Both the position numbers and the translations under genes were made by a program. From Saccharofermentans sp. (GTDB lineage Bacteria > Bacillota > Clostridia > Saccharofermentanales > Saccharofermentanaceae), in NCBI GenBank assembly GCA_016292145.1, contig JAEFBA010000008.1, forward strand, positions 1 through 52,675: a stretch of 52,675 bases of DNA, given 5' to 3'. Positions within the stretch are counted from its first letter, which is position 1. Each line of letters opens with the position of its first letter. Below are positions 46,356 to 52,283 of this stretch, in pieces. The notes under the pieces were generated by a model. It was not told the origin of the DNA. It was given only the letters and a program-made list of their open reading frames with translations, and did not search any database.

Positions 46356-48164
46356 TCAGATCCTTGCTGCACCGAGCTCTTTTATGATGTACGGGAACAG
46401 TATCTCAAGCCAGGCGTTAAGGGCCTTTGCGGTATGAAGATATGTCTCAAAGTTCTCGCCCGTAGGGTCAGGAACGGAAATGGACATTACTTTTCCTGAA
46501 GAATCCTTCATGACAAGGCCGTTTGCCGCAGCAAAGGTCGACAATGAGAAAACCTTCTCCTTTATCTCGGGGAACGCCTTGATTATGGAGAACGCCTGTT
46601 CATCCCTCACGGTCAGGATAAGGTCATTGCAGTCGTAAATGGCGGGATTGGCCCTTCTGGATTCTATGGAATTGATGCCAATTCCCGATATCTCCTTAAC
46701 AGCCTTATCCATCTGACTGTCCGGATCCATGCCGTCCATGGCGGTAAGGCCAGCCGACTCGCAGTAGATCTCAACGCCTGTGTCGCTTTCCCTGTTGGAT
46801 GTGTAAGGCTCGTTCTTTTCGAGCATCCGTCTCATAAGAGATTCAAGACAGCAGGACAACGAAGTGTTGTTGTCATCGACAAAGAGCACCGACGCCGTAA
46901 AAGTATCCTTAAACGCATCGAGCGGCAGAGGTGTCCTCGAAGGTCTTGCGGGCTTGGGCATGCCGGGAGTAAGCTCCTCTTTCTTGCCTGATGCCTTGGA
47001 AAGCCTGTTCATATAAGCGACGGATAATCCTTCGCCGTCAAAGCCCTGCGCAAGGATAACGTCAACTTCCTGTACGTCCAGATATCTCAAGCCTTCGAAA
47101 AGCCCGTGGGATGCTGCTGAAACATCAACAGTCTTTCCATAAACGCAGAATTCCGTATGGGCAGACAAGATCTTGTCGTTCATCTTGTCATACATTGCCT
47201 TGATCTCGCTGCCGCAGTAAAGGCCGATCCTTGCAAAGGGATTGGAAGATAAGATCTCGCGGGATCTTAAGATAAACGGCGATACGATATTTACAAGTTC
47301 CTTTGCTTCATCGTCGGAAAGCTTCTTCAGGTCCTCTACGGTACACGTTGCCCCACTGATCTTGCCGTCAGAACCCATGGCATCGTCGCCTTCGATCTTC
47401 GTGCCTTCGGGCATCTTCATTATCTCGACCTGCGCATAAGGTGCATAGTGGCGGTACTTCATTCCGGGCGCCTTGGGCGTCTCCTTATCAGCTAATGAAC
47501 CTGACATAACTGCTTCTCCTCCTTTGAGGACCGAATCGATATCCGCTTTTGTAACGGCACCGGGTCTTAAGATGACAGGGGTCGTTCCCGTACAGTCGAC
47601 AACGGTCGATTCAAGACCGAATTCCGAATCTCCTCCGTCGATTACCGCGTAGATATACCCGTCCATATCTTCAAGAACAGATCTTGCTCCGGTAGGAGAA
47701 GGCCTGCCTGAAAGGTTTGCCGAAGGCGCTGCGACAGGAACTCCGCACGCCTTAAGGAACTTGTTTGCTACGGGATTGGAAGGCATTCTGACACCGACCG
47801 TATCAAGACCTGCAGTGGTCTCATCAGAGATGCATGCTGCCTTCTTCATTACAACAGTTATGGGACCCGGCATAAAAGCGTCAATGAGCCTTTGCGCAAG
47901 AGGCGTGATCTCGGACACGATATCCTTTATCTGATCCTTATCGCCTATATGACAGATCAGCGGGTTGTCAGCAGGACGTCCCTTGGCCTCGAAAACCTTC
48001 TTTACCGCTTCCCCGTTTCTCGCGTCACAGCCGAGCCCGTATACGGTCTCTGTGGGAAAGCCAATGACTTCACCGTTTACAAGATGCCGGGCACAGTCCT
48101 TTATGCCCTTGCTGTCAGATGAATCTATAAGTAATGTCTTATCGTATTTCTTTACGCGTTCCAT
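46356..48164 (-). CDS. Threonylcarbamoyl-AMP synthase (Sua5) fused to a degenerate LMW phosphatase domain
   Basis: 602 residues. Residues about 15-210 are the YrdC domain (GFPTETVYGLGCDARNGEAV, KGRPADNPL, APSANLSGRPSPT), which makes threonylcarbamoyl-AMP for the tRNA t6A modification. The Sua5-type C-terminal domain follows (APGMKYRHYAP; GEGLSVAYMNRLSKASGKK near 385-405). From 426 to 602 the fold matches low-molecular-weight tyrosine phosphatase/YwlE: VLFV at 426, ESAGL, DLILTVRDEQA and DPTGENFETY. The C-x5-R phosphate loop is VDDNNTSLSC, with Asp430 for the nucleophilic Cys and Leu436 for the Arg, while the general-acid Asp566 is kept. The phosphatase part is therefore expected to be inactive. 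It starts 12 bases after the prfA stop. Confidence 0.88.
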   Translation of the reverse strand: MERVKKYDKTLLIDSSDSKGIKDCARHLVNGEVIGFPTETVYGLGCDARNGEAVKKVFEAKGRPADNPLICHIGDKDQIKDIVSEITPLAQRLIDAFMPGPITVVMKKAACISDETTAGLDTVGVRMPSNPVANKFLKACGVPVAAPSANLSGRPSPTGARSVLEDMDGYIYAVIDGGDSEFGLESTVVDCTGTTPVILRPGAVTKADIDSVLKGGEAVMSGSLADKETPKAPGMKYRHYAPYAQVEIMKMPEGTKIEGDDAMGSDGKISGATCTVEDLKKLSDDEAKELVNIVSPFILRSREILSSNPFARIGLYCGSEIKAMYDKMNDKILSAHTEFCVYGKTVDVSAASHGLFEGLRYLDVQEVDVILAQGFDGEGLSVAYMNRLSKASGKKEELTPGMPKPARPSRTPLPLDAFKDTFTASVLFVDDNNTSLSCCLESLMRRMLEKNEPYTSNRESDTGVEIYCESAGLTAMDGMDPDSQMDKAVKEISGIGINSIESRRANPAIYDCNDLILTVRDEQAFSIIKAFPEIKEKVFSLSTFAAANGLVMKDSSGKVMSISVPDPTGENFETYLHTAKALNAWLEILFPYIIKELGAARI

Positions 48165-49624: not shown

Positions 49625-50833
49625 TTATGCTTGAGGTGAAGCCGGTATTTCAGTCTGTTGGGACATAGCCGGCTGGACATTAGTTAATATCTCATATTCG
49701 ATCTTGTGTCTTAACGGCTTCTGGCAGCGCGGACAATATACGAATCCGTGGGGATACCATGATCTGTGACCCAGGTCACTTGTGTGGTAATCAAATTCAT
49801 AACAGCAGTACTCGCATCTGCAGTGGAATGTCGGATTGACCTGATCATATTCCTCTGCGGAATTGGGATTGACCATACCGGAATTCGGTATCCAGCCGGT
49901 TGTCACTGCCGGCTGCTGTACTTCAACAGGAGCTACAACGACCGGAACTGCCGCAGGCGCAGGAGCGGGTGCAGGCGCAGCCACGGGTGCCGGTTTTGTT
50001 GCCGGTGCAGCTGACGGTGACGGAGTTGATGCAACCCTTGCGGGCGCAGTTGTCGGTGCGGCTGCAGTTACAGGTGCCGTAGCAGGCTTTGCCGCAGGTG
50101 CAGGCGTAGTTACAGGTGCCGGCTTAACTGCCGGTTTCACTGCAACAGGTGCAGGTGCAGGTTTAGCCGGTGCGGGAGCAGGATTTGCTGCTGCAGGCGA
50201 AGAAGCTGTCTGTGTTCTCGCAAAACCAGTCGGGAATCCGGAACTGACTCGTACTGGTCCGGGTGCAGGCGCAGGAGCAGGCTTAGCTGCAACAGGCGCA
50301 GACGCCGGTTTTGCCGGTGCGGGAGCAGGCTTTGTTGCTGCAGGCGAAGAAGCCGCCTGCGTTCTTGCAAAACCAGTCGGGAATCCGGAACTGACACGTG
50401 CCGGTCCGGGTGCGGGTGCAGGCGCCGGAGCAGGCTTAAAAGCAACAGGCACAGGAGCCGGTTTTGCCGGAGCAGGTGCGGGTTTTGTTGCCGCAGGCGC
50501 CGGAGCTGTCTGTGTTCTTGCAAAACCTGTCGGGAATCCGGAGCTGACGCGTGCTGGTCCGGGTGCAGGTGCAGGTGCAGGTCTTGATGCAGCAGGTCCC
50601 GGTGCCGGTGCAGGCGCAGGTCTGGCCGCAACAGGTGCGGGTGCAGGCGCCGGAGCAGGCGTAGGTCTGGTCGCAACAGGCGCGGGTGCAGGTGTCGTCG
50701 GATGAGTGACCATGGGTTTTTTCGCAGGTACAAATGCCTGCACACTTAAAGTGCGGAAATCCAGTCCGCATTTCTTGCAGAAATTCGCTGTATCTGCGCC
50801 CATCGTACCGCATTGAGGACAAAACTTACTCAT
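49625..50833 (-). CDS. Zinc-ribbon protein with long Pro/Ala repeats
   Basis: 402 residues. Residues 4-24 form a zinc ribbon (FCPQCG...FCKKCG). Residues about 40-310 are a Pro/Ala-rich tail built from three ~50-residue repeats, each containing the non-low-complexity core RVSSGFPTGFARTQ. A second Cys-rich module near 335-380 (CRCEYCCYEFDYH...YCPRCQKPL) looks like another zinc-binding domain. No signal peptide or membrane helix is visible. The function is unknown. It has its own promoter (50886-50915), a strong AGGGAGG ribosome site and a strong terminator, so it is a single-gene unit. The N-terminal zinc ribbon plus Pro/Ala design is shared with the C11 protease at 17509-20307. Confidence 0.72.
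   Translation of the reverse strand: MSKFCPQCGTMGADTANFCKKCGLDFRTLSVQAFVPAKKPMVTHPTTPAPAPVATRPTPAPAPAPAPVAARPAPAPAPGPAASRPAPAPAPGPARVSSGFPTGFARTQTAPAPAATKPAPAPAKPAPVPVAFKPAPAPAPAPGPARVSSGFPTGFARTQAASSPAATKPAPAPAKPASAPVAAKPAPAPAPGPVRVSSGFPTGFARTQTASSPAAANPAPAPAKPAPAPVAVKPAVKPAPVTTPAPAAKPATAPVTAAAPTTAPARVASTPSPSAAPATKPAPVAAPAPAPAPAAVPVVVAPVEVQQPAVTTGWIPNSGMVNPNSAEEYDQVNPTFHCRCEYCCYEFDYHTSDLGHRSWYPHGFVYCPRCQKPLRHKIEYEILTNVQPAMSQQTEIPASPQA
50216..50560. repeat. Intragenic tandem repeats (three copies, 147 and 153 bp apart)
   Basis: The string CGGGAATCCGGA (A or G following) occurs at 50231, 50378 and 50531, each within a longer conserved block of about 45 bases. Spacing is a multiple of three, so the repeats keep the reading frame and encode the RVSSGFPTGFARTQ cores. 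The number of copies may vary between strains. Confidence 0.85.
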
Positions 50834-50923: not shown

Positions 50924-51406
50924 TTATCTGTTATCTACTTTCTCCGGATACATGTCGTGGTTGAAGAGCCTGTCCTCTGCCACCTTTTCCCACTTCGTTC
51001 CGGGCTTGCCGTAATTGCAGTACGGATCGATGGAGATGCCTCCGCGCGGAGTGAACTTGCCCCACACTTCGATATACTTGGGATCCATGAGCTTTATCAA
51101 GTCCTTCATGATTATGTTTACGCAGTCTTCATGGAAGTCGCCGTGATTGCGGAATGAGAACAGATAGAGCTTTAACGATTTGCTCTCGACCATACGGACC
51201 GAAGGAACGTAAGAGATCGTGATCGTGGCAAAATCAGGCTGTCCCGTGATAGGACAAAGGCTCGTGAATTCAGGACAATTGAACTTTACGAAATAGTCAT
51301 TGTCAGGGTGCTTGTTCTCGAACGTCTCAAGAACAGACGGATCGTAGTCCTGACTGTATTTAGTGCCTGCACTGCCGAGTTTTGTAAGGCCTTCTTTCTC
51401 GCGCAT
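50924..51406 (-). CDS. queF: NADPH-dependent 7-cyano-7-deazaguanine reductase (preQ0 reductase)
   Basis: 160 residues, the short (YkvM-type) form. It reduces preQ0 to preQ1 in queuosine synthesis. The catalytic Cys51 is in [12 protein letters not shown] with Asp58 following, and the diagnostic block [22 protein letters not shown] contains the NADPH/substrate Glu. It starts 4 bases after the transporter gene, and both are predicted to be under one riboswitch-like leader. Confidence 0.97.
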
Positions 51407-51410
51407 GTTA

Positions 51411-52091
51411 TCACCCCTTTACGATATTGTATTTGATGCCGTCGTCAAATACGTCGATTCCTTCCTTCTTCTTGATCCACCTTACAACAACATATGTTAC
51501 CGGTGTAAAGATAACCTCGTATGCGACCTTGAAAAGGTACTGGAAAAGGATCATCTTGAGGACGACTGAATTCTCCATCGTTCCCCAGAAAGAGATCGTG
51601 ATGAAGATGACGGAATCAAGGCCCTCTCCGACAACAGTCGAAAGGATAGTTCTAAGCCAGAGATTCTTGCCCTTTGTTGCGACCTTAAGTCTGGACAATA
51701 AGATGGAATTTGAGAACTCTCCGAAAAGATAACCTGCAAACGAAGCGACAGCCACTCTCGGAGTCGTTCCCATAACGATCTCATAAGCGCTCTGGTTCTC
51801 CCAGTAACCGGGATGAGGAAGAGCAATCGTGACAAGGTAGATGAGCACTGCAAAAAAGCTGCATCCGAATCCGAGCCAGATGATCGTTCTTGCCTTCTTA
51901 AATCCGTATACTTCCGTGAACACATCGCCGATGATGTATGTCAGCGGGAACAGGATAACAGCTGCCGGAAGAGTAATGTCTGATGTTACTGCCCACATCT
52001 TTCCTGCGATGAGGTTTGAGAGCAAAAGGCACGCAACAAATACGATGCCGATGCACATGAATAATTTCGATACTGTTTTAGATTCACTCAT
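51411..52091 (-). CDS. Queuosine precursor transporter (YhhQ/VUT family)
   Basis: 226 residues from the ATG with TTGGAGAAG upstream; the frame to 52139 would read through the terminator and lacks a ribosome site. Six hydrophobic segments (for example [60 protein letters not shown]). The conserved family signature [13 protein letters not shown] and [13 protein letters not shown] are clear. Members import preQ0 or preQ1. Being upstream of queF and behind a riboswitch-like leader supports queuosine salvage. Confidence 0.93.
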
Positions 52092-52106: not shown

Positions 52107-52132
52107 AAAAAATGACTCCAAAACAGGAGTCA
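52107..52132 (-). terminator. Leader terminator before the queuosine transporter gene
   Basis: Minus strand TGACTCC/GGAGTCA 7-bp stem with a TGTTTT loop (52113-52132), then TTTTTT (52107-52112). It lies 8 bases before the ribosome site of the first gene of the unit, so it is a leader terminator, the likely expression platform of the upstream RNA. Confidence 0.85.
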
Positions 52133-52194
52133 CATTCAATCAAACATGCATTTCGAGAACGCAATAAAATACTGATACAAATGATTGTCCTGGT

Positions 52195-52231
52195 TTTGTT
52201 TTCCGACAGGATGGCACAAACGAACTGTCGG
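52195..52231 (-). ncRNA. Putative queuosine-precursor (preQ1-type) riboswitch aptamer with H-type pseudoknot
   Basis: In the minus-strand leader, CCGACAG (52231-52225) pairs with CTGTCGG (52209-52203) to form a 7-bp stem. The loop segment TTTGT (52220-52216) can pair with ACAAA (52199-52195) just after the stem, a classic pseudoknot with loops of 4, 6 and 3 bases. Promoter upstream, terminator downstream, queuosine genes following. Class (I, II or III) cannot be assigned from memory of the consensus; clostridial origin makes class III worth testing first. Confidence 0.6.
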
Positions 52232-52254
52232 CGCATGTCTTTCGCGCGCTCAAT

Positions 52255-52283
52255 AAAATAACATCTTGTTAAGACAAGGTCAA
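52255..52283 (-). promoter_or_regulatory. Promoter of the queuosine transporter-queF unit
   Basis: Minus-strand -35 TTGACC (52278-52283), 17-bp spacer ending TGT, -10 TATTTT (52255-52260) with an extended TG. The leader would be about 155 bases, long enough for the aptamer and terminator. Confidence 0.72.

Follow-up and report, generated by a model that had tools for sequence, protein, structure and literature searches.

A probable preQ1 riboswitch with an expanded loop, related to class I type I, upstream of yhhQ-queF in Saccharofermentans

The window (i.e., the whole 52,675-nt stretch of Saccharofermentans DNA analyzed here) carries on its minus strand a gene for the queuosine-precursor transporter YhhQ (COG1738; 51411..52091; Pfam Vut_1, E = 1.3e-51), followed by queF, encoding preQ0 reductase (50924..51406; Pfam QueF, E = 9.2e-34). 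The locus raises the question of whether the leader of this unit holds an RNA sensor of the queuosine pathway and, if so, of which kind. A sequence-only reading had proposed a preQ1 sensor that acts by termination, does not match the class-I core, and may belong to class III or be a variant. The source assembly comprises 2.7 Mb, and many genomes of its genus are available for comparison. Two other minus-strand ORFs of the window drew attention: one at 49625-50833 whose two ends resemble zinc ribbons and which has a long stretch of Pro/Ala-rich repeats, and one of 602 aa at 46356-48164 that by eye resembles a Sua5-type protein fused to further domains.

The yhhQ leader and its conserved core

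The leader region (52283-52092; all coordinates in this section are on the minus strand) begins with a sigma-70 promoter (TTGACC, 17 nt, and TATTTT, with TG before the -10 hexamer; 52255..52283), from which transcription would start at about 52248; the leader itself is approximately 155 nt long. It ends with a terminator hairpin (8-bp stem and 6-nt loop, then T6; 52133-52112; -12.6 kcal/mol) and its U tract (52107..52112), downstream of which lie the ribosome site GGAG (52102-52099) and the ATG at 52091. The promoter, the leader of about 155 bases, and the terminator had all been read from the sequence beforehand, and all three are borne out. No other promoter or terminator of this kind occurs on the minus strand of the window (shuffled-sequence expectation, 0.7 promoters and 0.1 terminators), and relatives carry similar sequence at the promoter's place in same-genus yhhQ leaders.

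The leader upstream of yhhQ-queF holds a real RNA element. A 46-nt aptamer core (52186..52231) is almost invariant in 34 same-genus yhhQ leaders, while the flanks diverge; the sequence CCGACAGUUCGUUUGUGCCAUCCUGUCGnnAAACAAAACCAGGAC is common to the leaders of yhhQ orthologues and nearly unchanged among them. Since the folding energy of the leader is not unusual (z = -0.84) and its minimum-energy fold is uninformative, the evidence for the element consists of conservation and covariation. The core is composed of the P1 5' strand CCGACAG (52225..52231), the loop L1 UUCGUUU (52218..52224), the P2 5' strand GU(G)CC with one unpaired purine (52213..52217), L2 AUC (52210..52212), the P1 3' strand CTGTCGG (52203..52209), the A-rich L3 (52191..52202), and the P2 3' strand GGAC (52187..52190). 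The UUC of L1, the UC of L2, and A36-A38 plus C39 of the core (in L3) are invariant in alignment A3. The search pattern used for the genome collection fixed several core positions, so invariance in that set is partly imposed, including that of L3; in the pattern-free genus set, A36-A38 and C39 are likewise constant except in one shifted tail.

P1, i.e., the 7-bp stem already recognized in the sequence-only reading, is confirmed by covariation: it is 99.2% paired among 100 distinct cores, with compensatory changes, and its covarying pairs are 2-28 and 4-26 of the core. P2, formed by GU(R)CC with GGRC, is 100% paired in the same 100 cores, and P1 together with this canonical P2 makes an H-type pseudoknot. 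The variable pair 16-44 of P2, both columns of which were left unconstrained by the search pattern, is U-A in 60 cores, C-G in 33, U-G in 7, and broken in none. On the best QueD tree, both columns of this pair change at least 11 times with pairing always kept; the well-supported branches provide only 3 independent comparisons, none of them in the wrong direction. In slid controls, only 31 to 42% of the cells were paired, far below the values for P1 and P2.

The 5-bp pairing of the loop with the tail directly after the stem (UUUGU/ACAAA), which the earlier reading had also proposed, is present in this sequence but is not kept in relatives: four of its five pairs are broken in 33, 23, 7, and 7 of 100 sequences, and the helix, 86% paired overall with no double change, was rejected. 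The true pseudoknot tail lies further 3' (52190-52187), slightly past the span assigned earlier (52195-52231). Of the two pairings first envisaged, the stem is conserved and the second is not, a different pseudoknot being conserved instead; the core has no Rfam covariance hit. A hairpin directly 5' of P1 (52232-52247) is inconsistent in relatives and was rejected as well.

Two side observations concern the core sequence. Core columns 11, 20, and 41 (window positions 52221, 52212, and 52191) tend to change together, from one locus to another, from G11/A20/A41 to A11/U20/G41 and may form a tertiary contact stacking on P2. At one locus (L081; G165:C22:32116-32145), the core ends prematurely within its tail and is joined to a truncated yhhQ that has no N-terminal part; this junction is a deletion or an assembly fault.

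Distribution and relation to preQ1-I

Within the genus, a covariance model of the core (R1) found a single strong copy in each of 49 of 85 genomes; a second genus of the family also has strong copies. The genome under study contains a single copy (R1, E = 1.8e-16; R2, a covariance model of the broad core set, E = 9.7e-17; both self-matches by construction). Some members of the same genus carry the core before a non-orthologous operon, queC-yhhQ'-queF, with a distant yhhQ. Weak R1 matches in one genome (G181; L082 and L089) were set aside, as the core is degraded there and no queuosine gene lies nearby. A scan of a genome collection with a degenerate pattern yielded at least 119 core stretches; among the matches listed, 113 of 119 belong to the NCBI class Clostridia, mainly Lachnospiraceae and Oscillospiraceae, and the few non-Clostridia include single metagenome-assembled records of Chloroflexota and Mycoplasmatota. 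A search of viral contigs found no copy of the core.

Queuosine genes were the first downstream ORFs in 110 of 114 cases among the matches listed (68 QueD, 33 YhhQ, 5 QueC, 2 QueT, 1 QueF, and 1 nucleoside hydrolase). The nucleoside hydrolase is of the family that includes QueK. QueK is a queuosine hydrolase (PMC11477304).

A scan of the whole window with Rfam 15 gave nothing over the cut-offs, and focused scans with E values up to 10 gave no match of the core to preQ1-I (RF00522), preQ1-II, or preQ1-III. No match to RF02680 was found in 188 genomes of the order, in a search that was run without a positive control. Weak RF00522 matches were found in the order; those inspected had no adjoining queuosine genes and were discarded. 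In samples of 391 genomes of the class and 299 of the phylum, R2 matched 111 and 31, respectively; its weaker matches were mostly 43- to 45-nt forms (e.g., AAGACAGUUCGUAACCAUCCUGUCUAUAAACAAAACUAGGACU). Among 63 R2 matches inspected, the loop measured 12 nt in 42, 13 nt in 7, 14 nt in 4, 15 nt in 8, and 11 nt in 2; the loops of 12, 13, 14, and 15 nt form a continuous series with shared P1, UUC, UC, and tail. Many of the short forms also align to RF00522, at matching positions (about 18 to 32 bits versus a cut-off of 39); no long-loop copy does.

The pocket of the type-I Can riboswitch consists of G5-C18, U6, U7, C8, U16, C17, A28-A30, and C31 (PMC8752633). Its counterparts in the core (i.e., G7-C23, U8, U9, C10, U21, C22, A36-A38, and C39) are all invariant in A3; they include the contact residues for the two preQ1 molecules that type I binds. 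The G-C pair atop P1, UU after the P1 5' strand, and UC before the P1 3' strand are features of type I, the UC being its specificity signature (PMC11625349). We interpret the core as a relative of preQ1-I type I that has a longer loop and a canonical P2; by these searches, this divergent form of a known switch is absent from Rfam 15. With respect to the class suggested at the outset, the mismatch to class I holds at the level of RF00522 hits, the absence of Rfam matches places the core outside classes II and III, and the relation is instead to class I type I.

Five genomes (G212, G363, G523, G556, and G328) each contain, besides a long-loop copy, a second one that is short and RF00522-like (L225, L226, L228, L229, and L233; L286 and L287). 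At five other loci (L240, L241, L243, L246, and L247), short preQ1-I-like copies precede genes starting MKKIG(L/I)TTTVPVEVL..., which may encode a queuosine-salvage function or a member of the regulon from outside the pathway.

The core is common in gut Clostridia. In the genomes tested, Rfam annotation does not detect the switch, so that queuosine regulation is left unannotated in many gut Clostridia. The loop-length series shows how a class-I pocket can retain the residues that bind ligand even as P2 is remodeled, and it raises the question of whether two ligands are bound with a canonical P2. Our literature search found no paper on the motif or on a fourth preQ1 class. Since many type-I switches have been reported from Clostridia (PMC10622847), the 2014 type-I alignment (McCown et al.) may contain some of these sequences. 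We suggest tentatively, with somewhat less than even confidence, that the long-loop core is a fourth, undescribed preQ1-I subtype in which a canonical helix stands in place of the non-canonical type-I P2 and which may have changed in ligand count or specificity; it would be a main queuosine regulator in many Lachnospiraceae and Oscillospiraceae.

Attenuation, ligand, and alternative readings

The tail of the aptamer can pair over 10 bp with the 5' arm and loop of the terminator. The upstream strand of this antiterminator, CAAAA(C)CAGGA (52188..52198, minus strand), would form a duplex of -10.8 kcal/mol, compared with -12.6 for the terminator, with the downstream strand UCCUGUUUUG (52119..52128, minus strand), which overlaps the terminator 5' arm and loop. 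The minimum-energy fold of the transcript up to, but excluding, the terminator 3' arm contains this pairing. As L3 and P2 need the same tail strand, the aptamer and the antiterminator are mutually exclusive. A terminator-like hairpin follows the core in 163 of 169 leaders, and UCCUGUUUU recurs in most terminators of the genus. Over all leaders, the tail pairs better with the terminator 5' arms than with the 3' arms (p = 5e-10) and differs from reversed arms (p = 0.007); its pairing energy is -6.9 kcal/mol versus -5.9 kcal/mol for dinucleotide shuffles (median, 36 of 100). Since the tail-terminator pairing is weak against composition controls, attenuation is best supported for this genus and less so generally.

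The core is best read as acting by transcription attenuation, according to these predicted pairings. When preQ1 is plentiful, it would bind between P1 and P2, holding the A-rich loop, which would lie against P1 in the pseudoknot, and GGAC; the terminator would then form, and transcription would stop before yhhQ-queF. With little preQ1 present, CAAAA(C)CAGGA would pair with UCCUGUUUUG of the nascent terminator, no terminator would form, and the genes would be read. That the ligand stops transcription is suggested by the function of the genes and by those class-I switches that regulate transcription (PMC11625349).

We consider it quite likely that the element, with its expanded loop and H-type pseudoknot, is a class-I type-I-related preQ1 riboswitch that terminates transcription before yhhQ-queF. 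The evidence on the core itself comprises structure (from covariation), gene association, homology to class-I type-I RNAs, and mutually exclusive pairings. We infer preQ1, from which a modified tRNA base is made, as the very probable ligand, it being the product shared by the genes of synthesis, reduction, and uptake; the switching direction and stoichiometry are likewise deduced. Two family searches in the genome under study (85% completeness) showed TGT and no detectable QueC, a combination that is consistent with salvage of preQ0 via QueF to preQ1. Of the sensor originally proposed, covariation, gene context, and the pairings uphold a cis-acting queuosine-pathway RNA sensor that acts by termination, with preQ1 as its most likely ligand.

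The same kind of riboswitch could instead recognize another queuosine-pathway ligand (preQ0, queuine, or a salvage intermediate) or have a changed stoichiometry via its different P2 ceiling. It is precisely in P2, where the ceiling lies, that the long-loop form departs from type I, and YhhQ transports preQ0 as well as preQ1 (PMC5372724 and PMC10622847). We regard this as unlikely, given that the pocket residues of both type-I sites are invariant, that the core precedes queF, which uses up preQ0 (L173), and that it also precedes de novo genes, which make no free queuine, so that preQ1 is the common product. Far less probable is an independent preQ1 class whose resemblance to class I arose by convergence: although the core has no Rfam match and its P2 pairing differs, the continuous loop-length series with shared P1, UUC, UC, and tail, to the short-loop end of which RF00522 aligns, argues against it. 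A DNA repressor site at the dyad CCGACAG-N15-CTGTCGG, a conserved inverted repeat directly after the promoter, is hardly credible, since the loop and tail outside the dyad are conserved, the loop/3'-tail covariation is sensible only in single-stranded RNA, and the core is homologous to preQ1-I.

Comparison with known preQ1 riboswitches

PreQ1-II (RF01054) resembles the core in lying upstream of a queuosine-precursor transporter gene but has four helices, acts on translation, and occurs in Streptococcaceae and relatives (PMC11625349). PreQ1-III (RF02680) also lies upstream of a queuosine transporter gene, in Oscillospiraceae; it differs in its length of about 100 nt, its five helices, and its HL-out pseudoknot (PMC11625349). 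Neither has a match in the window. PreQ1-I type III, found in the Escherichia coli yhhQ leader, shares with the core the control of yhhQ, the class-I pocket, and, in part, the canonical P2 pairs, whereas its short pyrimidine-rich loop, AC before P1', translational control, and occurrence in Proteobacteria set it apart (PMC10622847).

The closest likeness is to preQ1-I type I (RF00522; Can, PDB 8fb3). The core differs from it in its loop of 15 nt rather than 12 (i.e., three extra bases), in a canonical GU(R)CC/GGRC P2 in place of the largely non-canonical type-I P2, with a ceiling unlike that of Can, in a tail that reads CCA rather than CUA (C40 for U32), and in going unmatched by RF00522 even at an E value of 10. 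In common, they have the H-type pseudoknot with covariation in both core helices, the G-C pair topping P1, UUC after the P1 5' strand and UC before P1' (all invariant in A3), an A-rich L3 ending in AAAC (A36-A38 and C39 corresponding to Can A28-A30 and C31), and the association with queuosine genes. Intermediates link the core to type I: its linked relatives have the tail CUA and loops of mostly 12 to 15 nt.
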